Positions 8,926 through 48,325 of a stretch of 64,000 bases of DNA are shown here, in pieces. The number at the start of each line of letters is the position of its first letter. Positions within the stretch are counted from its first letter, which is position 1. Origin of the DNA: Labia minor (lineage: Eukaryota; Arthropoda; Insecta; Dermaptera; Spongiphoridae); NCBI GenBank assembly GCA_963082975.1, contig OY720345.1, positions 58,758,528-58,822,527 on the forward strand, written 5' to 3'. Made by a program: the position numbers and the translations under genes. A model generated the notes under the pieces. It ran no database searches. It was not told where the DNA came from and saw only the letters and a program-made list of their open reading frames with translations.

Positions 8926-9612
8926 TACTGACCGACGATAGGAGAAGTGAAGGTTTTCACACCAAATTACACATGTGCAGATTTTTACATATCTGGACGA
9001 ATCATGCATTTTGTTTACAGAAAAAAGTATTTTTAGCATAATAGCTGTCCGTCTGTCCGTGTGTCCATTGACCGTATAGACCTGTACAGATTGAACGGCT
9101 TTACGGTTTTTGATAAAATTTGGTTTATTTACTTAATACACCATCACGATGAATTCATTAACTTTTGGTGTATATCCGAAAACCGGAAGTGATAGTTTAC
9201 AAAAAATTCATTGTCAGAAAATATTTCACTTAACTCACCATGAGCGGGGCGGGTATTTGTACCCGTTGCGTGGACTGCCAGTTATAAGCGGGGCGGACGC
9301 TAGCCGCTCATAGTGTGATAATATATATTTTCCCTTGTGTCACTTAAAATTACTTATTTTAAACGATAACTAATATATATCCCTCATATAAGTGGCAACG
9401 GGTATAAATACCCGCCCCGCTTATAAGTGGCAGTCCCCGCAACGGGTACAAATACCCGCCCCGCTCATAGTGTGTTAAAATATAGTAGTCATTAATAATT
9501 GATTAATTAAACTAAAAATAAAAACCAAGATAATATAATTAATATATATTGTTGTTTAAAAATTAATTTATTTCAAATCGTCGGTCGGTTCTGTGCATGG
9601 CCACAGTTCATA
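8926..9612 (+). repeat. Family B copy B1 (long subfamily), Helentron-like
   Basis: The element starts at ctgaccgacgatagg near 8926 and keeps its complementary subterminal repeat tcgtcggtcgg near 9579-9589. The 3' hairpin CTGTG-catggc-CACAG follows at 9591-9606. The middle has the gtccgtctgtccgtgtgtcc block (about 9049) and a ccggaagtgatag block. A 241-bp piggyBac-like MITE interrupts it at 9234-9474. Subterminal inverted repeats plus a 3' hairpin without flush terminal repeats is the Helentron-associated layout. No protein is encoded. Confidence 0.65.
9230..9478. mobile_element. piggyBac-like MITE with TTAA target duplication
   Basis: TTAA lies at 9230-9233 and 9475-9478, flanking a 241-bp element. 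The ends ctcaccatgagcggggcggg (left) and the complement of cccgccccgctcatagtgtg (right) are long inverted repeats of about 55-60 bp. The palindromic GGGTATTTGTACCC is repeated twice at the right end and once at the left, which could be a transposase-binding array. The paralogous B2 copy reads straight through the site (tttcacttaaaatatag near 12894), which confirms a single TTAA at the empty site. TTAA insertion is characteristic of piggyBac. Confidence 0.85.
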
Positions 9613-10489
9613 TTTTGTATTAAGTTTTACTTATCATAAATTATGTAATAACACTTGCCTTATTATTCAATATATAGAAGTAGAAAATCTCATTGAAACT
9701 TCTAAGTGGATTAATCTGTTTAGAATGGTAATTTTTGAGTTAGCAGGAATCGGAGTGGTTCTTGCTAGAAGTGATTATAGCCAGACCCCCCCACCCAAAT
9801 CGACCTCTCCTTTTATCTATGACCAATTACCCGTTAATGGATAATGGAGACCGGCTGTCTCGTTCAGACCCATTTTCATTTGGCACGTGCTGGGCTGGAT
9901 TTTGATTGGCCTGTTTCCGAATGGCACGCGTTCTGTTTTAAAGCTTTAAGATCAAGTCTGGAGTGTGGGGTCAGCTTGTCCGGATGGAGCCCACACGTAG
10001 TCTGTTGGGAATTGTGACGTTCGCCTCCACTCGTCAATAAACTATTGAATGAATCTTTCAAGTGATACTCCCTATCAAAAGGATTTTTTATTTGCTTCTT
10101 ATGGCGGCTGAATTTGATAGATGGACTGAAGCAAAGTAAAAAAATTAAATCAGATGAAAAGTGAAAAAGCCAATTAAGTTTTTTTTTCTTATTTTTATTT
10201 TTCCTTTATATGTAATTTACTACTTTGATAAGAATATAATGAGTATCGATATAATAAACCCATAATGTATAAATTATCGATAGAATTATTTAATTAAGTG
10301 AATTTATCAATAAATTCTAATCAGAATGTAACTCCTCCAATTATGTCACTATAAATCACTAATTCCCAAAATGGGCGGTAACTCCCCCCATGTTGCAGCG
10401 ATCCATAGGAGTGAAGATGGCCACAGGTGGAAAATTGTATTACCTTTCTATTTTGATAAGTAGTTTCAATAATTTCAAACAATATGTTT
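9613..10489. other. Intergenic with GC-richer unique island
   Basis: The block at 9750-10030 is clearly less AT-rich than its surroundings and is not repeated elsewhere in the window. It holds cggcacgtgctggg-like E-box sequence (cacgtg near 9894). Short frames on either strand match nothing I know. It may be a regulatory region or a lost exon. Confidence 0.35.
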
Positions 10490-10599
10490 CTAATTTATAC
10501 CTTTCTTAATTAAATTTTTAGAAAAAGGTAGGATCGTAAATACCTAATTATAATAGTATATCTTTCTGTTTAATTCCAATTAAAATTTATTTAAAAAAA
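10490..10599. repeat. Short duplicated block, copy 1
   Basis: About 110 bp containing atctttctgtttaatt and taaaatttatt, preceded by gaaaaaggtag. It recurs in the same order at 14990-15100. In this copy it runs directly into family A element A3. Confidence 0.5.
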
Positions 10600-11186
10600 T
10601 CTGGAGTGTCTCCACTCGCATATCTCGCAATTTGAATTGGGTTAATTAATACATATATTATATTTAAATTAAATTTAATTAATTATATAAAATATAAATT
10701 AAAATTAATAAATATATATTAAACCAGCGCGTGTTTGGTTCTTTGTTGATGGCACCATTGCGCGTGATTTGCAGTCGGGTTAAGCGATTCAATCAAACTG
10801 AAATTCTATATACATATAGCAGTTTTATACAATTTTTAATAATGTTAAAAACCATCAAACATATATCTTTATTTTTACGGTCACTTTAGAGGAAAAAAAT
10901 CAAAACGTGGTAGGTAACTTCTTCTGAAAGTGCTACATTTCTCAAAAGTGGATAGAAAACTACGAATTTTGAATAATGCCTGTGTACGAAATTTCATTAT
11001 TCTAGCTCAAACCGTTTTTGCGTATTCTTGTCTACATACACACACACACACACATACGCACAGACATTTTTTCCAACCTTACAATTAGTGAAAATGACTC
11101 AGGGACCTTCAAAACGTATAAAAACATCAAAATCTCCACATCGAAAATTTTCGTGTTCGCAATACTAACTCTGACGGGATAGTAAC
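10600..11186 (+). repeat. Family A copy A3, near full length
   Basis: It begins TCTGGAGTGTCTCCACTCG at 10600 (hairpin GAGTG-tctc-CACTC) and then reads atatctcgcaattt. It continues through the AT-rich arm, the cagcgcgtgtttgg block, the ttttacggtcactttagagg block, a CA microsatellite (about 11037-11053) and ctcagggaccttcaaaacg. It ends near aactctgacgggatagtaa at 11186, a mutated form of the 3' hairpin ACTATCTC-TGGC-GAGATAGT found in A6. The minus-strand frame at 11032-11343 is antisense to the repeat and is not a gene. Confidence 0.75.
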
Positions 11187-12424
11187 AATTATTGTTTTCC
11201 AGAGGCAATGAGTAATATTTTTTTTGAGAGGCGGTAGTCCAAATTAGTTTAGCAATCACTGTTTTAGTTGAATAGTTAAAAGATAAAGCACAACTGCATT
11301 CGAAGTCCATTTTCAAATTAACAATGAATTCTTTATGGACCAAGAAAGAAATCGGGTGAGCGTAGATATAATTGAATCAATTCTTATATTGAAGACACAT
11401 TTAAAAATATTACTTAGGACAGTATTGAAGAATTAATCTGCAAAAAAAAAAAATAATTTTGAAAAAAGTTAATTGAAATGAATCTTTTTATTCATAAAAT
11501 ATTAATTAAATACCTTATTTCAAGTATGTTATGTTAAGTGTATATTATATTATTAAGTAAGAATTTTTTTTAAAAAATTAAAATAGAAATACATACCCAA
11601 ATAAAATCTTTTTTAATAAAATTTAAGTGTCTTGTTTTTACATTTCATAATTATGAAATCCCTAGTCTTCCCTCATCTGATTAATACTGTATTTAATGTT
11701 GTTTATAAAAACAACCTGTATTTTACCAAAACTATTTATTAATCAAATTAAATAATTAAATAATAATTATCTTTATAAATAATATCATTGATGCATCTAT
11801 GAAAAAAGTAAAATGATTATATATATTGAAATGTATTTGTGATAAAAATTTATCTTGCCTAAAAATTATCTATTTAACTTGTTATAATTATTTTGAGAAA
11901 GAGTAAACGGAATTTTTGACAAAAAAACTAAAATATTATTTTCTCATATATATAATATAATTTATTGCTTAACTATATTCTCAATTCGAAATTGCTTTTA
12001 GATTTATTTATATTTGAAATTTACCATTTACAAAGTCTTTTCATCAGAAAAATTTATCATTTGACTTATCGTTTTCCATCAAAGTCATTTTAATTAAAGT
12101 AATTAATTAACACAAAATATAATAGCAAAGGATATTAAACTAATTTCAAGCTTTTAAAGTTAATAAACTAGTTTAATAATTAAAGTAGAACCTTTTTGTA
12201 CAGGATAGATATAAGTTATACAAAAATATTCGATAATATATATATAACATTGAAGGAGGTACAGGGGGGAGCCCATTGTTTAGGTGAGAAGAACGTAATA
12301 GTAACAAGTAGAACTGACTAGTATTTATATAATTCATTTGAATTCTTTATTTAAAAAAAAAATTGATAATCCAATTAGTAAAAGAATATTTTTTCTAAAA
12401 GGGGATTATCGACCCTAATTATTA
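11187..12424. other. AT-rich intergenic, no gene seen
   Basis: Long A/T runs and low-complexity sequence. I see no terminus, RNA gene or conserved frame. Confidence 0.5.
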
Positions 12425-12638
12425 TTTAAATAGAATAGTAATATATTTTATCTTTCAGACTTTTGCAAACTATCAGAGTGAGTGAGTATTGTGTTTTTTT
12501 TTGTATTGATTGTATTTGTTTTTGATTACAGTAAACACGTGTGATAGCGGTAAAACACAACGATATCTTCCAAATGAGATTTCTGCCTGCTACATCCCAT
12601 GCAAAGTAAGAATTATCTCTCAACATTTACCCTTTTTT

Positions 12639-13012
12639 ACCGGCCGACGATAGTAAGGGAGGTATTGTTTTCTCACCAAATTTCACACGTGGAGATTTTT
12701 ACCTATCATGCATTTTCTTACCCAAAAAAAAAGTATTTTTAGCATGATGTCTATCCCTCCCTCAGTCCGTATAGATGTGTACAGCTGGAACGGCTCAATG
12801 GATTTTGATAAAATTTGGAATATTTACTTAATGCATCAGTACCATGAATTCATCAACAAAGTATTAATTTTATATTCATTGTCCCAAAATATTTCACTTA
12901 AAATATAGTAGTAATTAATTTTGATTAATTAAACTAAAAATAAAAACTAAGATAATATAATTTAGTCATTTTAATTCAAGCATTAAAAATATTTTTTTTA
13001 TATACTTTATAA

Positions 13013-13049
<37 letters not shown>

Positions 13050-13112
13050 GTTGTTTGGAAATTAATTTATTTCAAATCATCGGTCGGTACTGTGCCTTGT
13101 CACAGCTCATAT
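12639..13112 (+). repeat. Family B copy B2 (long subfamily)
   Basis: The start is accggccgacgatagtaagg (12639). The right subterminal repeat is atcggtcggt near 13080-13088. The 3' hairpin CTGTG-ccttgt-CACAG is at 13090-13105, followed by ctcatat and a T-run. The element sits inside copy 1 of the segmental duplication. Copy 2 lacks it (cctcttttttacg near 44737), which places the insertion in a run of T. The interior includes a (TA)n microsatellite at about 13017-13047. The frame at 12708-12908 is incidental. Confidence 0.75.
13017..13047. repeat. (TA)n microsatellite
   Basis: A dinucleotide tract inside family B copy B2. Helentron-associated elements often carry an internal microsatellite. 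Confidence 0.8.
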
Positions 13113-14989
13113 TTTTTTTCTAATTTAACATTTAATGTCATGTCACACTCGCCAAACAATTCCTAATTCAAAATTGACCAATATCGACCTCAACTCCCAT
13201 TTTTTTTCAGAATATAAAAATTCCAATAACGAACTAAAAAATATTTCAAAAAAATTAAATTTTGTAAAATGCATTTTTATAATTTATATATATATACTTA
13301 TTCTCATTAATTTATTAAAAGTTAAATGAAAATAACATAAACGTTAAGAAAATCAACTATAAAATTTAATTTTCATTAAATATATTTATTTAAGTATTTT
13401 TTTTTATGAAAATCACCTTTAAGATGTTAATATTATTTTCTGAAATATATTTTTATTGTAAAGAATTTTATTAATTTAATATCACAGAAATAAAATAATA
13501 TTTTTAAAACTCAATACAACTTTTGAATCATATATTCAGTAATTTATTTATTTTTATATCTTTTTCATTTCGTTGTTATAAATCTTATCTAATTTTATTT
13601 AATTTCTTATTTATCTAGGAGGGAGAGATGTGATTTCAAGTCTTCGAGTTGGTCTTTTTCTAATCTGCGAAAAATATCAAGCTTTTATTAACTCCGAGGT
13701 CAGTATTTACGTATTATTAATTTGATTTTTAATTCAATTTCGACTTATTTATTTTAAAATTTTATAATTTAATATGTTATTTATACTTTAATTTCATGTT
13801 TCAATTTTCGTTCCTGGTACTGGATGTTGGTTTGAATTCTTAATTATTTTCTCCATTCCATTTATGAAATAATCTGCAACAGCTCACCAAATGTAAGTAA
13901 TCATCGTTAATTAGTATTTAGCATGGCACATTTTAAAATAGGTAAAATTTTATTAATTTCAAAATGTAAATGTAATATTTCAAGTAAAGTTTAAAATTCA
14001 TTATAATAAGTATAATTGAATTTAAATTGATTATATTATGTTTTGTTTTGATAATATTCATTAAGGGATTATAGAGAAATATATTAAACTAATATCATTT
14101 TAAAGAATTTAGTTTGATTAGGGAATTTCAGAGCACATCTGTCAAGAATGGGTATTTATAAGGGAGGTAGAACTGAGAAAGGTAATTAGAATTGTATATT
14201 AGAAGGTAATTAATTTCGATGCGTTACACTGGGTGAGTGGTTAATCTATGGTATATATATTTTGTAGTTAGAGATTTTCAGGATGTTGTCTCTTACATCT
14301 CTCGAGAGATGCATGTTCTCCTCCTACTAATTCATAGATTAGATAAGAATTAATAAATAAAAAAGTGTGGGTGGAAAAACAAGTGCCATGCCATTATGAA
14401 GGGTTGGGTTGCATAAACTTCATGAATTCTGCCTTTTTGTATTGCTGAGAGTGTAGTTGAGGTGGATCGAATGAACTGACTTCGGGAAGGTAATTCAGCA
14501 CAGTTCTGAAATGGAAATAGCCTGAACAGGAACAAAATGTTCGTTACCTTTTGAGCGAAGGGACTTATCGATTACCATGGGCTTTTCAACCCCATTGGTG
14601 GAGACTTTCAGGTTGCCCCTTTATTTTGATTTGATGTTTTACTTCTTTTCATTATGGAAAATATTTCACATGATTATAAAAATATATTGTTATTGAATAA
14701 TATCTATACTCAATAATAAAATTATATATTAATAAAATATCAAATATTTTTCTTTTATATGTAAATCTTATTTGAAGGAATTAATATATAATTGAGCCTA
14801 TAGTCTTATAGAAAAAAAAATAAGTTAATATATAATTTTTTTAAATTCTAAACACCCCCTACATTTTATATAATAAATAACAATTTTTTTTTATTTTGAT
14901 AAATAAGTGATACTCATATATTTACTGATTTACTTAGGGATCTCAACCATCCCGTTTTTAAACTCTCCCCATAGAATGCACCGGTAATT

Positions 14990-15100
14990 TTAATCTACAA
15001 TGTTTCCAATTTACACCATTAATTACTAAATTTTATGAAAAAGGTAGAAACGTTAATACATAATTACATCTTTCTGTTTAATTACTATTAAAATTTATTA
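14990..15100. repeat. Short duplicated block, copy 2
   Basis: It shares gaaaaaggtag, atctttctgtttaatta and taaaatttatta with 10490-10599 in the same order, but here a SINE rather than family A follows. Confidence 0.45.
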
Positions 15101-15185
15101 AAAATGTGCTGAATAATATTTTTTCTGAAAAGGGGACAGTAACTCAAATAAGTTTTGGGACTACTCCGAGAAATAACCAAAATAA

Positions 15186-15468
15186 ATTACCTCTGACTTT
15201 TGTACATCCTACGCAAGAACAACGACTATCAAGTCGGTTATATCAATTAGATATGATCAGGAGAACGGGTCCTATAAACCTTTACCTTGATTTTCTTGAA
15301 CGAAAGCGCTACTTTTTATCAAGTAACTTCCTAATTTTGATCCCGGAGGCTGGGTTGACTCAGTCCCATAGACCCCAGCTAGAGAAATGTCCTTACCAGG
15401 CTCGGGACTTGAATCCGGGACCACGAGAATGTGAGGCAGCTACGTTAGCCTCCCACCCTAAAGTTCAG
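15186..15468 (-). mobile_element. tRNA-derived SINE copy 1
   Basis: On the minus strand the head (about 15468 down to 15410) holds a degenerate A box and a B box reading GGATTCAAGTCCC, the pol III internal promoter of a tRNA. The body shares the gtctatgggactgagtcaac, ggaggctgg-type and atcaaggtaaaggtt blocks with the copies at 52154 and 61168. It ends at tcagaggtaattt. The 137-codon plus-strand frame across this region is the SINE's antisense and not a gene. Confidence 0.8.
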
Positions 15469-15683
15469 CATCAATCACTTAAAAAAAAATTCTCAATACC
15501 AAAAACCATAAACCTCTAATATCTATCCTTCTCTATCCTAAGCGACCTCCAATTAATTTCTTTTCTCTCAAAATTTCTTAATATCCGATTTTATGTATTT
15601 TTTTTTAAAACCACGATTCCAGATTAATTTTAAATTAATTATATATATATTATTATTGTATATGTTATATCTATCTATTTATA

Positions 15684-16142
15684 TGGCTCAAAGATACTCG
15701 AAAGTTCTTGGCCGCAACAACCACATTTCTCCAAGTGTCCCTATCCTGAGCCCTTGTCCCATCTCTCTTACGTTCCTTCCTACGCGTCTTCCAAGCGGAC
15801 GTTTTACAATCGGTCTCCGCACCAATATCTTTTTCCTCTCCCATTCTAGCCACATCCCCTGCCTATCGCAGCTTTTTCGCTTTTATAACCCTAACTATTT
15901 CTGAAGATGCATAGAGGTCATGCAATTCCTTGTTATGCAGTCTCCGCCATCTTTCTTTGGCTGGAATTCTCAAATACTCTGAATCTACTCTCATCTCCCA
16001 GCGTCATAGACCATGCCTCCCACCCATATAATACAACAGGCAAAATAATTGTTTTATATATTTTAATTTTGATTCCTTTTGATAATAATTTTGATGAGAT
16101 AAGCCTCTTTACTGCATGATAACAGGCGTTTCGCGATTGCAA
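15684..16142 (-). pseudogene. Non-LTR retrotransposon (LINE) 3' end, copy L1
   Basis: The minus strand encodes the C-terminal end of a LINE reverse transcriptase. From the high-coordinate side it reads LYKTIILPV-like (IKIYKTIILPVVLYGWEAWS), then LGDESRFRVFEN, then after frame changes VARMGEE and AQDRDTWRNVVVAAKNFRV. This order (thumb, YG.E.W motif, RMGEER, QDR..WR) is typical of LINEs whose 3' ends encode a HVARMGEER tail. Frameshifts break it, and the catalytic domain is absent. The same tail occurs intact at 58957-59249. Confidence 0.8.
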
Positions 16143-16405
16143 CCTCGATTCTTCTCAAATATTATTATCCTTCGTGATTACATTCAATTTTTCTATATAT
16201 TCAAATTCTACATTTTGTATATTTTGTATATACCGTTTTTTTTATTAATATTGATTTAATGTTCAATTGTTTTTGTTTATAGTTTTAAATTACCAAGTGT
16301 CGATTAAGTAAGAAATATCTTTTTTGTTTGTTTCTATGACAGCAAAAAAGTAAACAAATTACATACATACATACATACAAACACTCTCCTTTATATATAT
16401 AGATT
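16143..16405. repeat. Repeat block with (CATA)n shared with 42930-43191
   Basis: It contains caaattctacattttgtat (about 16200) and ctatgacagcaaaaaagtaa, then (CATA)n and actctcctttatatata (16335-16401). The same segments recur after the LINE fragment at 42622-42905. The two loci are therefore copies of one larger composite repeat. Confidence 0.6.
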
Positions 16406-17087
16406 ATATTATATATATATAATATAAAATATAATTCATTAGAAGTTATTTATCTATATTTTTATAGATTATTTCATAAAATTTTTAAATGTTCTGATTC
16501 GATCTAATCATTAATTCTTAAAGATTTATTTATTATTATTTCAGTATTAAAGTATTGGTTTTCAATCTTTCCTCAATAAACTTGGAAACCTGATTAGGTT
16601 TAACATCGAAATAATTATAGAAAATTAATTATCGATCGCGACAATATTAATAGCATCAAATTTCTACGTTAAGGACTAGAAAACACTATACCTATCGTAT
16701 GCTCCCTCATGTACGCAAACATCTAGAGAGAGGATGTAAGCTGAAATTAGTTTGGTCTACAATCTCAGGAAGGGTGATTTCGGAAGTTGTAAATGCTCTT
16801 GTTTAGTTTCTATTATTATATTCCCATTACAAAAGGTTTAATGAACCAGAAATTCTCTGAATGTGTTCATTTAACATAAAATAAAGTAAAACAAATACTA
16901 AATTCTGGTCGTTTATGCAAGATTTATAGTATAAAATAAATTTAATGTATGTTTTCATTAATTTTAATATAATTTATTTGAAAACAAATATAAAAGTTTT
17001 ATTTTTAATGAATTAAATTGTCTCAGAATTTTCTTATAAATTTAATAAATGTATTTATTTAATTTATATCATAATATAAAAATCTTA
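16406..17087. other. AT-rich intergenic, no gene seen
   Basis: There is no recognisable feature. A moderately GC-richer unique patch lies at 16640-16800. Confidence 0.45.
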
Positions 17088-17487
17088 CTTTAGTACATCC
17101 TATGCAAGGACAATGCCTATCAAGCTAGTTGACGCCTAAGAAGGGTATAGTATTTGTATAATGGATCCACTCAACCTTTATCTTGATTTTCATGATCGGA
17201 GGCTGCTACTTTTTATTTCAAGTAGTTAAATATATTTTTTTACTTGTATAGGTATCTCTATAATGATTTCTCCAAGAAACTAATTTTTGACTTTAGACCT
17301 CTTGAACAACTATTTTAAACAGTGCACTCTTTAGAATCAACTATGCTATTATATATTAGAGGTTTTTATTTAATGGGTGGATCTTGTTTCAATAGACCCC
17401 AGCTAAGGAGAAATTCTCTTGTCAAGTTTAGAAATTGAGTCCGAGACCATGAGGAGTGTTACTCCTAGACTGTGTGAGACATCTTTA
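17088..17487 (-). mobile_element. tRNA-derived SINE copy 2, decayed and interrupted
   Basis: The SINE body (gtacatcctatgcaagg at 17093; tgatcggaggctgctact near 17195; atagaccccagctaagg near 17392) is split by about 130 bp of unrelated AT-rich sequence (roughly 17235-17365). The B box region is mutated. This is the most diverged of the five copies. Confidence 0.65.
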
Positions 17488-17685
17488 ATTTATATAATAT
17501 ATAATATTATTAAAAAAAAAATAAACTTAAATTAAGTTTTTATTTATCAAGAACAAATTTTTTTATATACCTAGTGTATCAATTGTCATCATTGAATTTA
17601 AAGATAGTTACAATTATATGATTAAAAATTAAAATTTATTTTCAAATGAAATAAAAGTTTTAAAGATCTCTGTATAGAAAAAAAT

Positions 17686-18000
17686 TTGGAGTGTCTCCTC
17701 CCAACTATTTGAATGGGATTAATTACATATATTATATTTAAATTAAATAATAATTTTTTTAAAATTAATAAATAGTATTTATCAAACGAGCGCGTGTTTG
17801 ACTCTTTGTTGATGACAGCACGTCACGTGCTGACGCGTGATTGGCAGTCAACGTGTTAAAAAATTTAAAAAATTAATTTCGGTACTTTCAGCGATTCAAT
17901 CAAGCTGAAATTCTATATATCAGTTTTATACAATTTTTAATAATGTGAAAAACTATCAAACATGTATCTTTATTTTTACGGTCAGTTTAGAGGGGGAAAC
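17686..18000 (+). repeat. Family A copy A4, 3' truncated
   Basis: It starts ttggagtgtctcctcc and runs through the cagcacgtcacgtgctgacg and ttacggtcagtttagagg blocks, then breaks off into repeat family F. The microsatellite and 3' hairpin are absent. Confidence 0.7.
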
Positions 18001-18017
18001 TTTTTTTATCTCATTTG

Positions 18018-18200: not shown

Positions 18201-18201
18201 G

Positions 18202-20460: not shown

Positions 20461-20529
20461 TTGTATATTTTTGAGATATTGGCTCTAAGGATTTTTTTGA
20501 AATTCACACCATAGATAATATTTATAAAG

Positions 20530-23859: not shown

Positions 23860-25719
23860 TTAATGAGATGTATGCAGTTGTTTTCTTGAAACAAGAATCT
23901 CAATATCTGGCTTAATATTGGAAACTTTTAATCTAAGATCCGGCTCTACATTTAATTTGTTTCTATATTTAGACTTAATATAAAATAGTACCGAAAAAGC
24001 TTGTTCGCATAAATATGTTGTGCAGAATGGAATCAAGTGTTGAAGTGCTTTATTTGCAAGCGCAGGATAATCTGACCTGAGAAGTAACCAAAAGTTGCTC
24101 AATTCAGTTTTGTTAAATTTTAGTTTATAAGTTGTATCACATGATAATTCCACGAGAATATCTTGTTCAGGTGCAGATAAATGTTTAGCATTTGTAATTT
24201 CCATATTAAATGGATCTCTGATCCAGTTATTGCAAGGATCAGGAGTAGAAAAATACTTCCTGAAGTTGCTTTTCAAAGTAATTAAATGTTCAACAAATAA
24301 TTGACGCGTTTGATTAAGCAATTTTTCACTGGAGCTTTCTATGAAATCATTGAGAGTTGGAAAAGACTCATATACACCGTTCTGGATGCGTTTCGACCAC
24401 AAGTCGATTTTTTTAATCATTGCTTCTATTTTATCTTCAACTTTAAATATATTTACAACAGTACCTTGCAGGCTCAAATTAAGTTCGTTCAATTTTGTAA
24501 AAATATCAGTCAAGTAAGCCACCTTAGCTAACCAGATAAAATCATTGAAACATTCGGTCAGTTCAAAATGCGCATCTATTAAAAACAATCGTATTTCATC
24601 TCGAAGCTCAAAAAGGCGAATGAGTACTTTCCCGCGGGACAACCAACGTACATCTGTATGTAATAATAAATGTGTATGTTGACTACCCATTTCCTCACAC
24701 AAAATTTTAAAAACTCTGGAATTAAGTGGACGAGCCTTAATGAAATTGACAATTTTAACTACTTCGTCTAATGTTCTTTTCAAATCTGGTGACATATTTT
24801 TGGCTGCTAATGATTCTCTGTGAATGCAGCAATGATTCCAAACAACCTGAGGCGCAACATTTTTAATAAGAGCAATCAATCCAGTTCTTGTACCTGACAT
24901 TGCACGAGCACCATCAGTGCAAATTCCAACACATTTTGGCCACTCTATTTCATTTTCGGTTATAAAATTATTCAAACTGTTAAATATGTCATTAGCTGTC
25001 GTTCGTGAAGGTAGTGAATCACAAAACAATACATCTTCTTGTATTTGATTTTCAAACTCATATCTAATGAAAGCTAACAAATTGGCATTATTAGTGACAT
25101 CAGTACTTTCATCCAATTGTAATGAGTAATAGTGACTTTTGCGCACTCTCGATATTAATTCTTCTTTTATATTACATGACATGTCTTCAATCCTATTCTT
25201 AACCGTATCATTTGATAATGAAATCAAATTTATATCGTTTGCTGCTTTAGTTCCTAACATTATATTTGTAATTACTTTTGTAGCAGGAAGAATTAATTGC
25301 TCTGCTATATTATGCGGCTTTCCTGCTTTAGCAATAAGTAGAGCTACTTCATATGATGCCATTACTGCTTTCTTACTCATACCACCAGATCCCGTCTTTA
25401 CCATCAATTTCTGACTTGAATTAAGTTCTTCTTTTTTCATTTTAAAAAATTCGATAGACTTACTAACATGCTCGCTGTGCTTTGTTTGTAAATGACGTCT
25501 GAGATTAGCAGGTTTCATACTTTCATTGGATAAACTTTCCTGACATAGAACGCAGACTGGTCTTTCCACATCATTGTTGCAAATATAAGTAAATCCAAAT
25601 GATAAATAATCATCCGAATATTTTCTAGTTTTGCGTTTCTTGGTAGAGTTTGCTGTTGATGCCTCATCATCTGATTCTTTCCGTTTCTGTGTTGAACCAG
25701 TTTGTAGCCAACGATCCAT
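23860..25719 (-). CDS. hAT-family transposase with BED zinc finger (ZBED5-like)
   Basis: This 619-residue single-exon protein would cut and paste the surrounding hAT element in the nucleus. A basic region (residues 27-33, KKRKTRK) may be a nuclear localisation signal. A BED-type zinc finger lies at about 45-85, with C56, C59, H76 and H81 as ligands. The hAT catalytic core follows: D203 in QLDESTDV, D269 in CTDGARAMSG, and E572 in CEQAFSVL near the C-terminus. CCIH (297-300) and W359 are also conserved hAT features. The C-terminal dimerisation region spans about 530-590. The start MDRWLQTG is typical of this clade. There are no stops or frameshifts, and the length is normal for ZBED5/SCAND3-like transposases. 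Being inside matched ends, it is a transposon gene and not a domesticated host gene. Confidence 0.93.
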   Translation of the reverse strand: MDRWLQTGSTQKRKESDDEASTANSTKKRKTRKYSDDYLSFGFTYICNNDVERPVCVLCQESLSNESMKPANLRRHLQTKHSEHVSKSIEFFKMKKEELNSSQKLMVKTGSGGMSKKAVMASYEVALLIAKAGKPHNIAEQLILPATKVITNIMLGTKAANDINLISLSNDTVKNRIEDMSCNIKEELISRVRKSHYYSLQLDESTDVTNNANLLAFIRYEFENQIQEDVLFCDSLPSRTTANDIFNSLNNFITENEIEWPKCVGICTDGARAMSGTRTGLIALIKNVAPQVVWNHCCIHRESLAAKNMSPDLKRTLDEVVKIVNFIKARPLNSRVFKILCEEMGSQHTHLLLHTDVRWLSRGKVLIRLFELRDEIRLFLIDAHFELTECFNDFIWLAKVAYLTDIFTKLNELNLSLQGTVVNIFKVEDKIEAMIKKIDLWSKRIQNGVYESFPTLNDFIESSSEKLLNQTRQLFVEHLITLKSNFRKYFSTPDPCNNWIRDPFNMEITNAKHLSAPEQDILVELSCDTTYKLKFNKTELSNFWLLLRSDYPALANKALQHLIPFCTTYLCEQAFSVLFYIKSKYRNKLNVEPDLRLKVSNIKPDIEILVSRKQLHTSH

Positions 25720-25809
25720 TTTATGGAGTAATTTATTAACATTGAACTACAATAATATAAATATAATATAAATATAATATAAATATAACGAATTATTATT
25801 TACTAGCTA

Positions 25810-36827: not shown

Positions 36828-36868
<41 letters not shown>

Positions 36869-37866: not shown

Positions 37867-39446
37867 TTATACTCTTAACTTATCCATACTATAACCATTA
37901 CATTTATAAAAAATTTAAAATAACCAATGAAGACAATATATTGTATTATATATCAATTAAATAAATTGAAAATTCTTAATGAGATATATTCATATTTCTT
38001 AATTCTAACACAGTCTATTAATTTAATTGAAAAATTTATATGATTCAAAGTACAATTATATTTATTTTTAATTAACAATATGGAATATTTTGAATATTAT
38101 TATATCATTTTTCAATACCATTTTGAAAAAAAAAAATAAAATAATGAAATTATTTCTAAAGAGTTATTCATTTTTTTTTATTAATAAAATTGAAATAAAA
38201 ATAAAAGTTTTATTACCTTATTAAATTGAAATTTTATGATTTTTTTGTATCTTCCAACTTTGCAATATACTAGAAATGGTAGGTAGGTATACATAGAATA
38301 CATAGAATAAATATAAACTATCATCTATTGAACTCACAATGTAAAATTTATATATACAAATACAAATGCTATGCGGTTTTCTATTTAATAGTCATAATCA
38401 TAAAATATATTTTATTATTTTTTTTACAAAATAAAACCTCTATTAAATTTAATAGAGTAAGTTTTAATAGAACAAAAATTATTCGATATTTTCATTTATT
38501 TTTAATTATCTACTTGATAACATAAAATCAGATCTGAATTAATGTAAATTCGGACTATTATCATATTTATTAATATTAGTTTTAATTTAAGAATTAATAA
38601 TATAGTTGAATTTCGAATAAAATAAGAAATCAATTTTTTTATGACTTCTATCAGTTTGATGTTACTGAACTTAAAATTTCTTGATTGCAGCAATCATATT
38701 CCTCCAACTTTACCTATCCTAAAATATAAATCAGAAATAAAAGAATATTTAAAAATTACATATATCAATTTTTATAATTATTTGTGTAAAGTACTTGTTT
38801 TAATTTCTTTATGATTTTATTAAATTTTTTAATTTTAAAATATCTTCAAATCCATCAAATTTTTTATTTTTTTAAAATTCTAATTATAAAAATAAAAAGG
38901 AAAAAAAATTGTTTAAGAAACATTTCTATTTATACAGATTTTTTTTTTATATTTATTTGCAATGAATGTTTTTTTATACATGCCTGAAAATAAAACCTTT
39001 ATTTTCCCGTCCATGAACCTGATGGCTTTTACTTGGTAAAACCTTTTTGGATTGTTACTCTTAACAGTATCCAGTATCAGTAAAAAAAACAAATGTCAAC
39101 CTAACTGCACCATAATCCGTTTTTTGTAATAATCCGTCTTTCATTTTCTTTTAAATCAAGCTTCAAATTGCACGAAACTAATGGGAAAATATTGCTGTCT
39201 ACTTTTTATACCCCTAATTGCTTAATAAAAACAGAATGAAATAAAAGGGTAATGAATAAATGGAAGGAGGAGTCTTTAAATTATCTTTACCCTAAAATGT
39301 GAAGGGTAAAACTAAATATTTATGCCAAGAAAGTTTCCAGTTAGGGTTGGCTACTCAATGGTTTTTATTCCTCCTCCCCTCTAATAAAAACTTTAATAAT
39401 TGTTTTAATTATTTTTTTAAAAAAAAATTATTTCATTCAGATATAA
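37867..39446. other. AT-rich intergenic, no gene seen
   Basis: Low-complexity A/T sequence. Small frames at 38328-38693 are unsupported. A slightly GC-richer patch lies at 39000-39180. Confidence 0.45.
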
Positions 39447-39735
39447 AAACCTCTGGTTTTTGAACATCCTATGAAAGAACAGCATTCATCAAGTCATCAT
39501 ATCGGTTGCCATCTAAGTGGGTTAGAGGTGTTATATGATCAATACAACTGATGCTCTGAATCTAATCTAGTTTGCCTTGATCGGAAGCCAATACTTGTTA
39601 TTTAAGTAGCTTTCCAATACTGACCAAGCAGGCTTAGTGAATCTCCAGAAAGAGAAAATCTCCCCTTGCCAGACTCTGGAAACGGACGCAGAACCACGAG
39701 AAATGCTTTGACATCTAGACTTCCAGATACACAAT
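39447..39735 (-). mobile_element. tRNA-derived SINE copy 3, decayed
   Basis: The 3' end (complement of aaaaacctctggtttttgaa) and body blocks (tatgatcaata; agtagctttccaatac) match the other SINEs. The B box is mutated (gaaacggacgcagaacc). Confidence 0.65.
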
Positions 39736-40769
39736 AAAATTTAATATATTCTTTTATACATCTCCACTATTCTCCTATAAACAATTTGTGATCATTATTT
39801 ATATCATTTGAATTACGATGTCAAGGGACGGTGTTGATAAAAACAAGGAAAGAACTATAGTCTAAGACTTGTCAGTCTTTTGCTAAACTCTGTTCTTAAA
39901 ATTTTTTATTTCTTGAAGTTAATATTATACTTCATATTTTTTATTTAATATTCCAATAAACGTTTTTAAATTTTATTCAAAAAAATTGAATTTCATTCCA
40001 ATCGATTTATTTTTTTCATTTCAATATTCGAACAATGTGCATATTTGGGTCATTTATTTATTCAAATAGAATTTGAAAATAAATGAAAAAAAAATAATGA
40101 AGAAAGTTGATTTGGATTTGCAGGTAGAGAGACGGAAGTGAGTGGATATATAATTGAACAAAATGGATGAAAATAAACGATAAATTATTTTTCAAATGAA
40201 AAATTTGCAACCATTCATTTTATTCATGAAGGTTGTTCAATCCATCAACGAAGTGATTAAAGAAGATAATAAAAGAGTGAAGAGGATGAGGGGTGCCAGC
40301 CCAAACTGCTCTCTTCCCTTTTTTTCCCTCTTACAAGAGTTAATTGCATTCTTTTTTAGAAAGGATTTTTTACTTACGTATAATGAAATTTGATTTACTT
40401 TAGAATAAAGGATATAAATATTTTAATAGACAATTTAAAAGTTTTTGTTTAAAAAAAAAATATTTGTTTTTATTAACAAACTTGGTGAATAAAATATCCA
40501 ATTTTTATTTAAAATAATAATAATATGATTATATTGCCCAGAATCATAATGACAAAAATTATATCTCAAGTATTTTTTATGCCAAGAAAATAATAATATA
40601 TATTGCTAAAAAATTTAAGTTAACCATAATTTTAAAAATATTAGTTGCTTGCATATATTCTGATCATTTTTTTCACTTTAAAAAGGCATTTATTAAGAAA
40701 AATTGGTATAATATATTTTAATCAAAATATTTTAGTTCATTTTCTACAACTTTTACACACTTACTTTTT
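39736..40769. other. AT-rich intergenic, no gene seen
   Basis: The frame at 40196-40393 is not recognisable. Nothing else is seen. Confidence 0.45.
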
Positions 40770-41765
40770 TAATCATTTGGTCTCTCTACAATCAAACAAA
40801 ATTTAAATAAATTCAAATATTTATATTTTTTTTAATTTAATTGATGTAAATGTAAATACGATTTAATTTAGACTTGATGTACAGAAATATTAAATATTTT
40901 TACCCATCTCACAACGTGACTCAGTTAAATACCTTGGACTACACCTAGACAGACGTTTAACCTGGGAGACCCACATTAGATCAAAAAAAAAAAAAACAAG
41001 TTGACTCCAAACTTAGACAACTCTACTGGACCTTAGGACGAAACTCCCAAATGACCCTATCACAAAAACTCCTAATTTACAATTCAATCCTCAAACCAAT
41101 TTGGACATACGGTGTTCAGTTATGGGGCTCCGCTAGTGTTTCTAACATCAACAAAATATAGCGGACCCAAAACAACATCCTACGTTTAATGACCAATGCG
41201 CCTCGGTACCTACCTCTTAGAATACTACATAGAGACCTTAAAGTCCCTACAATAGACGAAGTAATTAAAAACACCTGTAAAAAGTATCGACAGAAATTGA
41301 CAAACCATCAAAACAACAAAGCCAGACAACTATTCATCAATGAGACTAACGGACGAAGACTTAAAAGACTTAAACCAATCGACTTCTTATAGTTCCTACT
41401 CTGAACTCAGCTAGTTCCCTTCGTTTTTCCAACTATTTTCCTTTAATCTGTATATTCAGCAGGTTTTCTTTTACTCTTTCTTTCCTATCCTATTCCCTCC
41501 TCTTTCTTTCACTGAACCCTAAATTGAGAGATGTCGTCCCGTCCTACTCTATCGGGCAAATAGCCGAGCCGAGTACTTCCTAATACTCCCTTATTTCTCC
41601 TTTCCATTATATTGTAAATATTATTGTAAATATATTGTAAACGATTTATTGTTGCCCAAAGAAAGGGCAGATGTAGATTTTAATTGGAAAATAAATAAAA
41701 AAAAAATTTTTTAGGTGATTAGATTTGATCTAATTTTGTCCGATATTCTCCTAAGATTAGAAAAA
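40770..41765 (+). repeat. Family F repeat interrupted by a LINE
   Basis: The left part (40770-40902) and right part (41707-41765) together match the uninterrupted copy at 18018-18200. The split is at the run attttta, just after gtacagaaatattaaat. Confidence 0.75.
40903..41706 (+). pseudogene. Jockey-like LINE, 5'-truncated reverse transcriptase end
   Basis: The frame opens with ISQRDSVKYLGLHLDRRLTW, a Jockey-clade RT motif, and shifts at a 14-A run (about 40983-40997). It continues LRQLYWTLGRNSQ, ILKPIWTYGVQLWGSAS and NAPRYLPLRILHRDLKVPTI, ending KRLKPIDFL with a natural stop near 41390. One in-frame TAG (about 41159) looks like a CAG to TAG change. A 3' UTR of about 310 bp ends in aaataaataaaaaaaaaa. 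A 7-8 bp duplication (attttta) flanks it. Endonuclease and catalytic RT are lost to 5' truncation, the usual fate of target-primed insertion. Only two lesions suggest a recent copy. Confidence 0.88.
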
Positions 41766-42234
41766 ACTTATAGATTGAATCCTACCCAAGTTCAATTCAT
41801 ATTTCCATCCAAGTTTAACGAGTCACCTTAATTTCTAGATTTGACTAGAACACATTTCGTTTTTACCGACTGACAATAGTAAGGGAGGTATTGTTTTCAC
41901 ACCAAATTTTTACATATCTCCACGTATCAAGCATTTTCTTAACAGAAAAAAGTATTTTTAGCATGATGTCTGTCTGTCCGTATAGATGTGTACAGCCTGA
42001 ACGGCTCAACAGATTTTGATTAAATTTGGTATATTTACTTAATGCATCAGTGGGATGAATTGATCAACTTTTGGTGCAAATCCGGAAACCGGAAGCGATC
42101 GACGATAGGAAGGGAAGGGTTATTTTCACACCAAATTTCACATGAGGAGATTTTTTTACATATCACCACGAATGTATTGGTTTTATCCTCGGGAAAAATC
42201 ATCTTCATTATGTTTTTCTTAATTTAAAATTATA

Positions 42235-42262
42235 TGACGTCACCCAGTCCTTTATGACGTCA
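42235..42262. promoter_or_regulatory. Paired CRE palindromes in family B
   Basis: TGACGTCA occurs twice, 20 bp apart start to start. It is the CREB/ATF site. Related positions are 44386-44393 (one intact, second mutated), 48139-48146 (second intact, first mutated) and 20594-20601. Whether they act as enhancers is unknown. Confidence 0.45.
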
Positions 42263-42379
42263 CAGCCTCCGTATTATGATCACGGGCAACGCCGGCTACT
42301 TCAGCTATATATTATAAATAAAATAAAATTAAAAATATTTATGTTCTATCCATATCTGCTTTTTATTACATTAATAGAT

Positions 42380-42525
42380 ACTAGCTGCTCCGAGCGCCAT
42401 CGGCGCTCTTCACACCTAGACGGGGGCTCCGCCCCCTGTACCCCCGAAAGATATATAGTATTTGGTTGAAAGTCTGTATGTAAAAGGTTTTCATCCATTT
42501 TGTTTCAATCAGTATAAGTAGATAA
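42380..42525 (+). repeat. Family C 5' end, copy C2, with two GC-rich hairpins
   Basis: It starts actagctgctc. GAGCGCC (42392-42398) pairs with GGCGCTC (42402-42408) around 3 nt. GGGGGC (42422-42427) pairs with GCCCCC (42431-42436) around 3 nt. It is followed by gatatatagtatttgg and tttcaatcagtata. Copies are at 20313 and, inverted, 48703. No proteins are encoded. Confidence 0.65.
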
Positions 42526-42621
42526 GACATGTATTTGTTTTCTTGTAAAATATATTTTAATTTAATCAGTAAATTAATTATATATTATTATTATATATGT
42601 TATATTTATCTAACTCTGTGT

Positions 42622-42905
42622 CTCTACAGTTTTCGAAAGTTCTTAGCCGCAGCATCCACGTTTCTCTAAGCGTCCCTATCCTGAGCTACAACCAAATCTT
42701 ACCCTGTCCCATCTCTCCCATGTCCCTTCCTTCATTGTCCACCCACCTTGGTCCTTGGTCTTCCACCGGATGTTTCCCAATCGGTTTCTCCCAATTTCTA
42801 GTTTCTCCAATTCCAACCACGTCCCCTTCCCATCCCAGCCTTCTTGATTTTATAACCTTAACTATATCTGGACATTATTTCTCGTTATGCCATCTCCGCC
42901 ATCCC
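42622..42905 (-). pseudogene. LINE 3' end, copy L2, inside a composite repeat
   Basis: It is antisense to the plus strand. The tail block corresponds to the AQDRD..WR..AAKNF region of L1 and L3 but is full of stops and indels. The same flanks as L1 are present on both sides (ttaattatatat and caaattctacattttgtat). The plus-strand frame at 42597-42959 is its antisense. Confidence 0.7.
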
Positions 42906-43126
42906 CCTGTGACCTCATCTTCTTTTATACTTTTTCAAATTCTACATTTTGTATGTTAATTGTATGTAAGTTGTATCCGTATCATAATTCTTGATTTTTT
43001 TTTTTTGTTTAATTACATTTCGGTTGATTTTTCCCCAATTTCTCTAATCACATGTCTCCTCTTCCAGTCCAATTCATTTACCTATCAATGTTGCATAAGG
43101 CATTAAGAGGTTCTAATTATATATAT

Positions 43127-43377
43127 ATCTGTTTCTATGACAGCACAAAAAAGTAAACAAATTACATACATACAAACACTCTCCTTTATATATTTTTCTG
43201 GAAAATGAAACACCCGCAGCTCAGCTCAGGAGTTACCTAAGATTCTAATTTCTTTTTTATTTTTCATCTCATTTGAGGTACCCTTCACCTCAGAAAAATT
43301 TAGTTACCTTACTCCTCGTATTTTAGGCTCTGGAGTTTTTTGCGTACAGACGGACACTGTCGTATTAAATATATAGA
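43127..43377 (+). repeat. (CATA)n block and composite repeat 3' part
   Basis: ctatgacagcacaaaaaagt, ttacatacatacaaacactc and ctcctttatata match 16335-16401. Unrelated GC-richer sequence (to about 43360) follows before family B resumes. Confidence 0.6.
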
Positions 43378-43468
43378 TATTAAAATTATTTGAAATTGTT
43401 TCTGTAGCTGGAAATTAATTTATTTCAAACCGTCGGTCGGTTCGGACCTGGCCACAGGTCAACTTATT

Positions 43469-44246
43469 TTTTAAAATTTAAAATATATATATATATATAA
43501 AAGAGAGAGAGAGAGATTTTAATTATACATATATGAATAGTGTATTATTACTAAATTATTTTGAATTTTTTTTTTATATAAATTTATCAATATCTAATTT
43601 TATTGTAAATATTGTCAAATAATACCTATATTTTAATATTATAATTACATTTTAAAATTTTAAAGTATTATAATTGAGCTCATATTTCAGAATATATTAA
43701 CAAGTTCTTTTTCAAAATTTTATATTTTATTTGCTTATGATTGATTATATATGTTATAATTTAAACAAATTCAAATATTTTATTTTTTAGATTATTAACT
43801 ATTTAATATTTTCTATCCTAAAAAAGAATTTAATAAACATAATAAATAAAAAAATAAACCTTTTAATAAATTATAATGGAATATAATCAATTGGATTTAA
43901 AACAAATTTAATTCAATTACCCAATTTTAAAAAGAAACAAATATTTAAAACAACTCCTTTATATCATTTTTATATAATCAATAAATGATTTTTGCACTTA
44001 AAATATAGAGATAATTAATAATTTAGTAATTAAACTAAAAAAACAAAAACAATCTAATTTAGTCATTTTAATTGGTTTTTTAAAAAATATTTTGACTTGA
44101 TAAAATACATAAAAAATAATTTTTTGTTTTTTTTTTATTAAACTTGGATAAAATTTATACCCTTCACTTTTAAATAGAAAAAAAGAAATATTCAAATCTA
44201 TTTAATTAAACGAGTAGTAGTAAAAATTTATAAGGTAGCCCTTTTT
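43469..44246. other. AT-rich intergenic, no gene seen
   Basis: (TA)n then (GA)n near 43484-43517. Nothing else is seen. Confidence 0.45.
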
Positions 44247-44532
44247 ACCGACCGACGATAGGTATTGTTTTTACACCAAATTTCACATGTGGAGATTTTT
44301 ACATATCACCACGAATCATGCACTTTGTATTGGTTTTATCCTCGAGAAAAATCAACTTTAGTTTTTTTCTTAATTTAAAATTATATGACGTCATCCAACC
44401 ATTCAAGACGCCACAGCCTGGTTTTACATATATATTCTAAATAAAATAAAATTAAAAATATTTATGTTATATCCATATCTGTTTTTATTACATTAATAGA
44501 TATATTAAAATTATTTGAAATTGTTTCTGTTA
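44247..44532 (+). repeat. Family B copy B4 (short subfamily), 3' truncated
   Basis: It starts accgaccgacgataggtatt at 44247. It contains gttttatcctcgagaaaaat, a CRE at 44386 and ttacattaatagatat. It stops at attgtttctgt, so the right subterminal repeat and hairpin are lost. Confidence 0.75.
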
Positions 44533-44944
44533 ATTGGGTATGTAACTAATGTATTACTTACTAAATTTTTTTTAGGATTAAAATAGAAATTCATACTAGA
44601 AAAGAATTGTTTAACGTAATTTGCTAAGAACACAGCAAAGAAAAGCATAACTCATCGATATCTTCGAAATGACATGTAGACTTACTATACCGTATCCCAA
44701 CCAAGATAAGAACAATTCTTTCCATTTACCCTCTTTTTTACGAAATATATTTACATTAAATTAAAATTATATCACATTCGGCAAACAATTTTAAATTTAA
44801 ATTGAACCATTTACATTAATACGCCACCTCCTTGTTTTTTTTTTCAAAATATGATAATTTCATTAATGAATTTCTTACTGATATATTTATATTTTTTTGT
44901 TTTTAAATTTTCACTAAGATCTTTGAATAAAATTAAGCTTATTG

Positions 44945-44977
44945 ATTTAATAGAATTAATAGAATTAATAGAATTAA
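44945..44977. repeat. 9-bp tandem repeat
   Basis: The unit aatagaatt is repeated about four times. Confidence 0.7.
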
Positions 44978-45089
44978 ACTTATTGATTCGATTTAAGATG
45001 TATTCTAAAACACCACTAATTTTAAAAATTAATATTTCTTTATTATAATATTTTATTTTAATATGTATTTTATTTGAAATAATTTGCAG

Positions 45090-45240
45090 TAGAGCGCTCG
45101 CCCCTCTCCATTCCCCTCCACCGCCTGGATTGACCTCCTCTTGCAGGCCGGCTGACTCGAACGCATTTAGTTCCCCTTCTCTGCTGAGTGTAGGACCCTG
45201 AACGGCCTATCCACTGAAATCAACCCCTATTCATCCCTTA
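45090..45240. other. GC-rich insert in duplication copy 2, possible tRNA-like remnant
   Basis: gtagagcgctcgcccc resembles the D-arm region of a tRNA (GGTAGAGCGCTCGC is common in tRNA-Ala). No clear B box or acceptor stem follows. It is absent from copy 1. It may be a truncated SINE head. Confidence 0.25.
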
Positions 45241-47970
45241 ATCAAGAATTAATTGTGATTTTATTATTTATTTTTATTAATTAAAAGGAAGATTTGTGAA
45301 AAAAAAAATATTTCAATAAAAATTAAATTTTATAAAGTGCATTTTTATAATTTTTATTCATATACCCAAATAAATTTATAAATTTTTCATTCAAATCTTT
45401 GAAAAGATTTAATCTTAAATATTCTATCAGATCTCATTACCTCAATTTTATTAAAAGTTAAATTAAAATTATTTAAAAATTAAAAAATCATATACAAAAT
45501 TTTATTTTTCTTTAAATATATTTATTGAAATATTTTTTAAATTTCAATATATATATTAATCCTATTAAAACTTATTTATTTAAAAAATATGATGTTTATT
45601 TTCAAAATTCATATAATATAATTATAAATCAAAAAAATATAAATTTCTTATATTCATATAGGAATATATAATTTTAAATATTCTATATATTCTTTCTAAT
45701 CTCATTATCGCTCACACCGTTCCTTTCAAATCTCATATGAATATTGTTTTGTCAATTTCATATTATTATAACACTTTTGAAAAATGAATAATATTTCTAT
45801 TACCGATATATCAATTAAACAGAATAAAATCTTCGTGAAATTAATAATATAATCATAATTAGTTTTCTGTTGTTTTCTAAGATATTTTTATTATATGTCT
45901 ATTAAATGCGTATTATAACTTATTATAATCATAGTTCTATATAGGATGTAAAATAATTTTTTTTAGTATGTTAATATTACAGAAATAAGATAATATTTTT
46001 AAAAATCTATACACTTTTTTAATCCTATTAATATTATTTATTTATTTATATCTTATTTTTTTATTTCCTGTATATAATATAAATATCTAATCTTAATTAT
46101 TTTTTTCTTTATCGAGGCGAGAGTGATGGACATCCATTCAAGTCTATGAGCTGTTCTTCGAGTTTAATCTGTGAGAAATATCAACCCTTTATTAACTCCG
46201 AGGTCAGTATTTATTATTAATTTTATTTTTAATTCAATTTAAATTTATTGATTATAAACTAATAAGTTATTTTTCTTCTTCTATTTCATGTTTCAATCTT
46301 CGTTCCTGCTACTGAATGTTGATTTGAATTCTTGATTATCTTCTCCATCCTTCATGACGATGTAATGATTTAAATACAGCTCTCCAAATGTAAGTAATAA
46401 TCGTTATTTATTTAGCATGGCGCACTTTAAAATAGGAAATGTAAATATAATATTTAAAGTAAAGTTTAATATAATATAGAAAGTATAATTAAATTACAAT
46501 GATTTTTTGCTTTTGATAATATTCATTAGGAGATTATAGAGAAATATATTAAATTATATGACAGAATTTAGTGAGATTAGGGAATTTCAGAGTACATCTT
46601 TCAAGAAGAAGCATTGATAAAGGAGGCAGAAGAGACAAAGGTATTTTTAGAATTAGTAGGTTTCGATGTGTTATACTGGGAGGGTGACTATTTTTTGATA
46701 TATATATATAGTTGTTAGGAATTTTCAGGTGGTTGCCTCCTACATCCATGCATGTTCTCATCATACTAATTCATAGATTAGATTAGAATTAATAAATAAA
46801 TAAAATGTTGGTGGATAAAACAAATGCCATGCTATTATTTAAGGGATGGATTGCATGAATAACACTCCAGGTCTGAATTGTGAGGTGGATTGGATGAACG
46901 GAAATTCGGGAAGGTAATTCAGCACAGTTCCGAAATGGGATTAGCCTGAACAGGAACAAATTGTTGGTTACCTTTTGAGCGCAGGGCTTTTTCGATTAGC
47001 ATGGGCCTTCCATGCCTATTGATGGAGGCTATGCATTCCCTTACTAGGTAGGTTTTATTTCAGGTTGCCCCGAATGTCGCGATTTCATTTCGAAATCCAA
47101 AAAATCAAAGGCACTCTCAGCTGATTCAAAGAGGCTACAGGCCAAACGCCTTATATTTTTTTTAAGGCAAACTTTTTTTTATTATTACTTTTTCTAAATT
47201 TCGGAAGGCGAGGCTTGGAAGGGCTAATTTATGGGGAAAGGAGGAGGCCCTATTAAATATTCAATTGTTTTTTTTAATTTAATTAATAATAAAAAAATAA
47301 TTGAATATCGCGATTATTTTCTTTAACTTTTTATTTTCATTTTGAAATAAACAATTTCATAATTTAAACTTTGGTATATTTTAAATATTTTACTATAAAG
47401 GTAGAATAAATTATTATTATAATTTCTCAATTTAAAATTAAAATGCAAACATCACAAAATAAAATAATATATATTGTAAAAATATAACTCTTTTTCATTA
47501 TTATTTCTTTTTAACTTACCAAATATAAAAATATTTTTTTTATTATGGAAATTATTTCATATGAATATAAATATATTGTAATCGAATATATCTATATACT
47601 CAATAATAATTTAATATTAATAAATTATCAAATTTTTTTCTTATCATTGTACTGATAAATCATATTTGGAGAGAAATAAAATATAGTTAAGCTTATTTAA
47701 AAAATTAACTTAATGTATAATTTTTGTTAATTATAAACAACTTCTTTTAAATAAATAAATAAAATTAGATCTCCTAAAAAAATTTTTAATTTTGATAGAT
47801 CAAATATTCTTATTCTTTAGCTGACTTACAAATCCCATACGATCATTTTGCTTATTCTTATGTGTATTCTGTCCCAGTGTCCCCACAAAAATTCTCCGGG
47901 AGATAAAAATGTCTCGGTTTACATAAATAATAATATCATCCGTAAATAAACCAAATATTATTCAATTTTT

Positions 47971-48325
47971 ACCGACCGACGATAGTAAGGGGGTATTGTT
48001 TTCACACCAAATTTCACATGTGGAGATTTTTACATATCTCCACGAATCATGCATTTTGTATTGGTTTTATACTCGGGAAAAATCATCTTCATTAGTTTTT
48101 TCTTAATTTTAAATTATAAGACGTCATCCAGCCATTCATGACGTCACAGCCAGCTACTACTTATATATTATAAATATAATAAAATTAAAAATATTTATGT
48201 TCTATCCATATCTGTTTTTTATTGCATTAATAGATATATTTAAATTATTTGAAATTGTTTCTGTAGCTGGAAATTAATTTACTTCAAACCGTCGGTCGCT
48301 TCGGACCTGGCCACAGGTCAACTTA
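47971..48325 (+). repeat. Family B copy B5 (short subfamily), complete
   Basis: This is the best short copy. The start is accgaccgacgatagtaagg (47971), with a CRE at 48139-48146. The right subterminal repeat is accgtcggtcg (about 48288-48298), and the hairpin GACCT-ggccac-AGGTC is at 48304-48319, followed by aactta. It is 355 bp long and uninterrupted. Confidence 0.8.

Follow-up and report, generated by a model that had tools for sequence, protein, structure and literature searches.

The window analysed here is a 64,000-nt stretch of the AT-rich Labia minor genome (604 Mb in 71 contigs), positions 58758528–58822527 of the contig labelled C2; its G+C content is 23–30% in 4-kb steps. It contains several copies of a non-coding repeat, family B. 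We consider it very probable that family B is a HINE, i.e. a DINE-1-like non-autonomous Helentron/Helitron2 element, and that it would be moved in trans by a Helentron Rep-helicase. HINEs as a kind are already known; family B is a further, very abundant example in L. minor. Below, B1–B5 denote the family B copies in the window, L-numbers sampled loci of the genome and C-numbers its contigs; comparisons with published systems refer to parts of the papers cited.

Left ends similar to TTTTTACCGACCGACGATAG (at most three mismatches) were present at five sites of the window (8922, 12634, 41860, 44242 and 47966; shuffle mean 0.00), and the right repeat together with the first part of the hairpin at four (9579, 13078, 43431 and 48290; shuffle mean 0.01). 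The original prediction had listed five copies with common ends; all five left ends are there, but right ends exist only in B1, B2, B3 and B5, and in each of these four a hairpin does follow the right repeat. All copies lie on the forward strand. Rfam gave no match across the window.

Both B1 (8927–9610) and B2 (12639–13109) are long-type copies with two ends. In B1 the left terminal repeat, ACTGACCGACG (8927–8937), stands immediately 3′ of T5; the right subterminal repeat, CGTCGGTCGGT (9579–9589), is followed by the hairpin CTGTG-CATGGC-CACAG (9591–9606). B2, located within a T-run, carries the hairpin CTGTG-CCTTGT-CACAG (13090–13105). Inside B1 there is an extra foldback (arms 9230–9296 and 9412–9478), a 67-nt inverted repeat that is 94% complementary and has a GC-rich part, GCGGGGCGGGTA, within AT-rich surroundings; this stretch, 9230–9478, is probably another insertion.

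The hairpin GACCTG-GCCA-CAGGTC is found in B3 (at 43445–43460) and in B5 (at 48304–48319), so that the predicted assignment of the two hairpins to copies was right, except that B3 is not a plain short copy. It is a degraded composite-type member (41865–43468) in which an outer left end, a long-type left half, a second left end near 42094 (AGCGATCGACG, 42094–42104, mutated in comparison with the outer one) and a short-type body follow one another. B3 is further split by a nested canonical non-autonomous Helitron (TC...CTAG) of 997 bp on the reverse strand (42381–43377); joining its flanks restores the family B consensus ATTAATAGATATATTAAAATT and, as judged from this comparison, insertion took place between A and T without target duplication. 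Hairpins of the nested Helitron are similar to those downstream of an autonomous Helitron gene elsewhere in the genome (L040). B5 (47971–48325) is a short-type copy with both ends: its outer left end is followed by a deletion reaching the inner body, its right subterminal repeat (48290–48300) has one mismatch, and it has about 74–95 bases of the left end and 54–70 bases of the right end in common with B1 and B2. The remaining pieces are B4 (44247–44530), of short type and lacking a right end, and an end-less fragment of the long-type body (43992–44111).

Ends, target sites and composite structure

The repeats of family B are real and far above chance. The exact 11-base ACCGACCGACG occurs at 51,043 sites of the genome (25,431 + 25,612), its reversed control at 92 (50 + 42); the exact right end TTCAAAYCGTCGGTCGGT occurs 19,739 times and its control not once. 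Thirty stretches of viral contigs match the 15-letter left end, none with an exact right repeat within 3 kb downstream, and we treat these matches as chance; prokaryote genomes had no match to the 20-letter left end.

Copies were sampled in three sets, all of them non-random: 28 loci of contig C1 (L001–L008 and L045–L064) selected by the exact 11-base terminal repeat, 20 loci (L087–L106) picked by the CTGTG arm, and L107–L116, picked for absence of TTCGGACC. All sampled copies originate from C1, except the window copies, L149 (C4) and L033 (C5). The first set contained 21 two-ended elements with a mean identity of 95.3% to their majority consensus, a figure that spans up to 45 bases 3′ of the right repeat, part of which is flank. 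A GTCC/GTCT microsatellite occupies part of the left half of the consensus.

In these 21 full elements the left repeat lies directly 3′ of a T-run, while on the right side conservation extends 25 nt beyond the repeat, covering the hairpin and ending with CAACTTA. Thus, the inverted repeats are asymmetric, with a terminal 5′ copy and a 3′ copy that is subterminal, 25 nt inside the end. The element has a polarity, and the asymmetry of its ends argues against a cut-and-paste element. The ends do not conform to those of canonical Helitrons either (5′-TC, CTRR-3′, insertion between A and T), as the borders of family B read T/ACCG and CTTA/TT.

The targets are T-rich, with no duplication beyond T. 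The left-flank T-run has at least five T in 18 of the 21 full elements, and at least two T follow CTTA in 20 of the 21. Unfilled forms of three sites are known from other copies. The host T6 became 5 + 3 at L001 and 6 + 2 at L051; at L061, compared with a consensus host T7, it became 5 + 4. In each case the number of T rose by two. In the window, the claim that B2 sits in a T-run was confirmed by comparison with a diverged paralog near 44,715, which matches B2 at only 64% of 223 aligned columns: the paralog reads CATTTACCCTCTTTTTTACG where B2 reads CATTTACCCTTTTTT followed by ACCGG.

DINE-1 was once described as a miniature inverted-repeat transposable element (MITE) of a cut-and-paste (DDE) transposon that duplicates TT targets, and one could describe family B in the same way, since its 11–13-bp repeats are inverted and L001 and L051 each gained a net two T, which is compatible with a TT duplication. 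We regard such an origin as very improbable. The terminal inverted repeats of a MITE are symmetric; here the left repeat is terminal while the right one is followed by 25 conserved nt that include the hairpin. Moreover, elements with two left ends and one right end, as well as an array of units joined by TT, are better explained by rolling-circle transposition.

Such composites made up 19 of the 21 full elements (L051 and L054 were single-headed) and were the commonest form sampled; they measured 583–624 bp from the left repeat through the end of the right repeat. At the inner left end, AGC had replaced ACC in 22 of the 23 examples located by a pattern search and in 17 of 19 full composites; therefore, the source copy of the composites probably carried an inner left end that had already decayed. 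The composite pattern with an intact inner end has just 33 matches in the genome, a low figure because the inner end is mutated, and the mutated form is not counted in it. Composites with several 5′ ends and one 3′ end are also described for the FoHeli elements of Fusarium, where they were explained by self-insertion and a stop at the first 3′ end (PMC5148889). Family B differs from FoHeli in that the composite is the commonest sampled form and its inner 5′ end is decayed.

Head-to-tail arrays were observed as well. The exact TT junction of a right end with a left end occurs at 22 places in the genome, a count that stands without a background rate; such junctions bear on a rolling-circle joined-end intermediate only indirectly. 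At L149 (C4:27918600–27919400) a right end, TT, a complete unit, TT and a left end follow one another, with the two junctions 620 bp apart. As both right-end segments have a private base in common, this array probably arose by copying of one unit; rolling-circle read-through would be expected to yield such an array, and unequal exchange could also do so. Junctions at L103 and L112 are similar to those of L149.

Two registers of the 3′ hairpin

The original prediction had taken the two hairpins for a covarying structure in which sequence changes while pairing is kept. We gathered 57 right ends; the pair counts exclude L103, which a context filter removed, L053, which has no anchor and has lost the hairpin, and six right ends belonging to neither class. 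Right ends starting with CGGAC, the short type, numbered 27, with 26 anchored. GACCT/AGGTC was retained in 20 of them, and the other anchored ends had single changes only: four leave a T-G pair and two break the pair. Right ends starting with CTGTG or CTGCG numbered 24, and 17 retain CTGTG/CACAG; arms of this class were read at fixed offsets, so indels there score as mismatches. A change of both sides of a pair was found in none of the 26 anchored short-type ends and in none of the 24 CTGTG-type ends, the latter group being nearly blind to such changes as the CTGTG arm had served to select the loci of 19 of its members. The expectation that more copies would reveal compensatory changes was therefore not borne out.

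What had looked like covariation is a pair of overlapping hairpins in shifted positions. Consensus forms of both types contain the core CTGGCCACAG. In the long type the stem is formed by CTGTG and CACAG; in the short type GACCTG has CAGGTC, located 3 nt farther along, as its partner. Since CACAG and AGGTC belong to an almost identical 3′ sequence, CACAGGTC, read in different registers, no compensation at matching columns is involved. Intermediates exist in which a CTGTG arm precedes a short-type tail on a short-type body (5 of the 20 CTGTG-selected loci); the exact intermediate form occurs 583 times in the genome, CGTCGGTCGGTTCGGACC 15,672 times and CGTCGGTCGGTWCTGTG 1,906 times. For the intermediate at L105 the predicted fold favours the short-type register.

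In Drosophila DINE-1, stems that differ between species were earlier taken as a sign of compensatory mutation (PMC2374699), and for a pair of related Helitron2 elements compensatory changes were reported that preserve the features of their ends (PMC3627910). Unlike that reading of DINE-1, stem variation in family B, when tested, turned out to be a register shift.

The hairpin lies between the 3′ repeat and the 3′ end, as in HINEs, and the z-scores of its fold are weak: the three window hairpins gave modest values of –0.7 to –1.3 against shuffles. A perfect stem of at least five pairs was found in 20 of 27 short-type ends and in 17 of 24 CTGTG-type ends (mostly chosen by one arm), as compared with 5–7% of mononucleotide shuffles, a control that preserves base content only and is weaker than a dinucleotide one. 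A 9-bp palindrome at the right end of L116, a candidate third hairpin type, has one exact copy in the genome, and we treated it as chance. At the 5′ side, pairing of the repeat is weak in B5 and absent in B1; folding places a separate stem, GTGGAGA/TCTCCAC, roughly 50 nt from the 5′ end.

One could speculate that the terminator was changed by a switch of register, with CACAGGTC paired by CTGTG (through CACAG) in one state and by GACCT (through AGGTC) in the other. We put this forward tentatively, and with the same reserve we suggest that the surviving intermediates, with 583 exact copies, are able to form either hairpin. The portions consulted of the literature on Helitron hairpins and compensatory change describe no such switch, which is no proof of its absence. 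Another possibility, to which we give somewhat less than an even chance, is that the hairpin types arose by exchange of terminal segments or by drift and not by selection for a hairpin. The lack of compensatory changes among the 26 short-type ends and the weak z-scores of individual folds would fit it, and the intermediates join a CTGTG arm to a short-type tail as recombination would. However, exchange or drift does not readily account for perfect stems of at least five pairs in most sampled copies of both types, nor for the exact complementarity of the short-type 5′ arm to the shifted 3′ arm.

Rep-helicase genes and the proposed mode of transposition

The Helitron Rep family PF14214 has 104 matches in the genome. 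By the GLPH motif L040 and L041 are canonical Helitrons, and L039, L042 and L043 encode a Helentron-type Rep with DUF6570 and PIF1 and with the GSPH form of the motif, described as diagnostic of Helentrons (PMC4067079). The L042 protein is 2181 aa long; it includes an endonuclease-like C-terminal stretch (PF14529, E 2.8e-4, below the cut-off) and a stretch resembling a C48 protease (PF02902, E 0.004, below the cut-off; best phmmer hit in PDB, sentrin-specific protease 8, E 0.013).

L042 invites consideration as the autonomous partner, with family B as its internal-deletion derivative: a composite left end with about 560 nt of family B (consensus 1–517) lies upstream of its frame in the same orientation. 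The homology stops at L042rc:167, however, and the flank of this left end recurs inside the L042 leader; given the recurring flank and the break in the copy, we read the upstream copy as a truncated HINE inserted in leader repeats, and consider a partnership of L042 improbable. L039 was also rejected, as it belongs to a separate Helentron family, whose homology with a second copy starts near TTTAGTTATACGAGG and not at ACCGACCGACG. The leader of L042 (L042, L085) holds repeats also seen upstream of the L039 element.

Two equal-scoring Helentron-type gene matches on the reverse strand of C63 (5288–6781 and 23019–24512), 17,731 bp apart, are possibly a tandem duplication. A further Helentron family (C9:34495875–34501232, reverse strand, and L034–L036) has an intact 1785-aa frame and copies that are 99.7–99.9% identical over 3.4 kb, a similarity suggesting that it was probably active recently. 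In the window, a 628-aa open frame on the reverse strand (23860–25746) resembles a hAT transposase (PF05699, E 8.6e-4, below the cut-off).

The HINE layout proposed for family B held up with respect to asymmetry of the ends, repeat spacing, 3′ hairpin, microsatellite, T-run targets, empty sites and presence of Helentron-type Rep genes in the genome. Several observations weigh against it. The search for a Rep-helicase element with the same ends, limited to a part of the Rep loci of the genome, was negative: no terminal repeat with at most two mismatches was present in the six 9–10-kb Rep-gene regions L039–L044; among 30 of the 104 PF14214 matches a terminal repeat appeared only in L033, where it comes from a neighbouring HINE; 20 loci with similarity to the C-terminus of L042 contained none with at most one mismatch; and no right end follows the composite left end of L042 in the approximately 3 kb read downstream of the frame. 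Fold energies of the right ends (n=4) were only 0.3–1.3 standard deviations better than those of dinucleotide shuffles. At the target, CTTA is not followed by T in L004, and just two T are present in three of the 21 left flanks. Insertion between T and T is supported by the three empty sites, where only T was gained, but not strictly by L047, which gained one T plus an extra A, so the rule of plus two is inexact; some inner bodies of the L061 host type have T6 instead of T7, which would make that gain three. Finally, sequence alone cannot separate a TT target duplication from T owned by the element, and the TT targets of DINE-1 present the same ambiguity (PMC2374699).

For family B as a HINE, we suggest that the Rep of a Helentron-type Rep-helicase, so far inferred since none of those read lies between family B ends, would nick at the 5′ terminal repeat adjoining the T-run. 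The strand would be displaced 5′ to 3′, the 3′ subterminal repeat and the following hairpin would serve as terminator, and a joined-end intermediate would insert into a T-run. The dominant composite is best accounted for by insertion of one element into another, followed by a move that started at the outer left end and stopped at whichever right end came first; in the source copy the inner left end would have decayed.

Known systems agree with family B in many respects. HINEs of Metaseiulus occidentalis are likewise non-coding, with subterminal inverted repeats, a 5–10-bp 3′ palindrome and T-rich targets (at least two T per side, no clear target change); their repeats, however, are palindromic and lie 38–60 nt from the 3′ end, in comparison with 25 nt and non-palindromic repeats in family B, and an autonomous partner with the same ends was shown for the mite (PMC4067079). 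DINE-1 has 13-bp repeats, a (CCGT)n(CTGT)n tract, TT targets and a 3′ stem-loop that begins a few bases downstream of the 3′ repeat and has a stem that varies between species; it differs in sequence and has stems of 7–11 nt, against 5–6 in family B (PMC2374699). In Helitron2 the 5′ repeat is 0–2 bp from the end and the 3′ repeat 20–30 bp from the end before a hairpin, as in family B, and one Chlamydomonas family inserts after TTTT, which resembles the T-runs seen here; the 5′ hairpin of Helitron2 is weak in family B (PMC3627910). The oyster Cg_HINE shares 11–12-bp repeats, a GTCY/GTCC microsatellite, a 3′ palindrome and TT targets, but its satellite-like central array is not present in the family B copies read (PMC7492417).

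Assuming one 624-bp element per exact right end, family B would make up an estimated 12 Mb, or about 2% of the genome. If the register switch were real, family B would preserve the path of a terminator replacement, and the protein would recognise that a hairpin is present, and where, but not its letters. In this genome composite elements coexist with long-type, intermediate and short ones; they are natural variants with which one may ask what a Helentron terminator needs and how self-insertion leads to new source elements.

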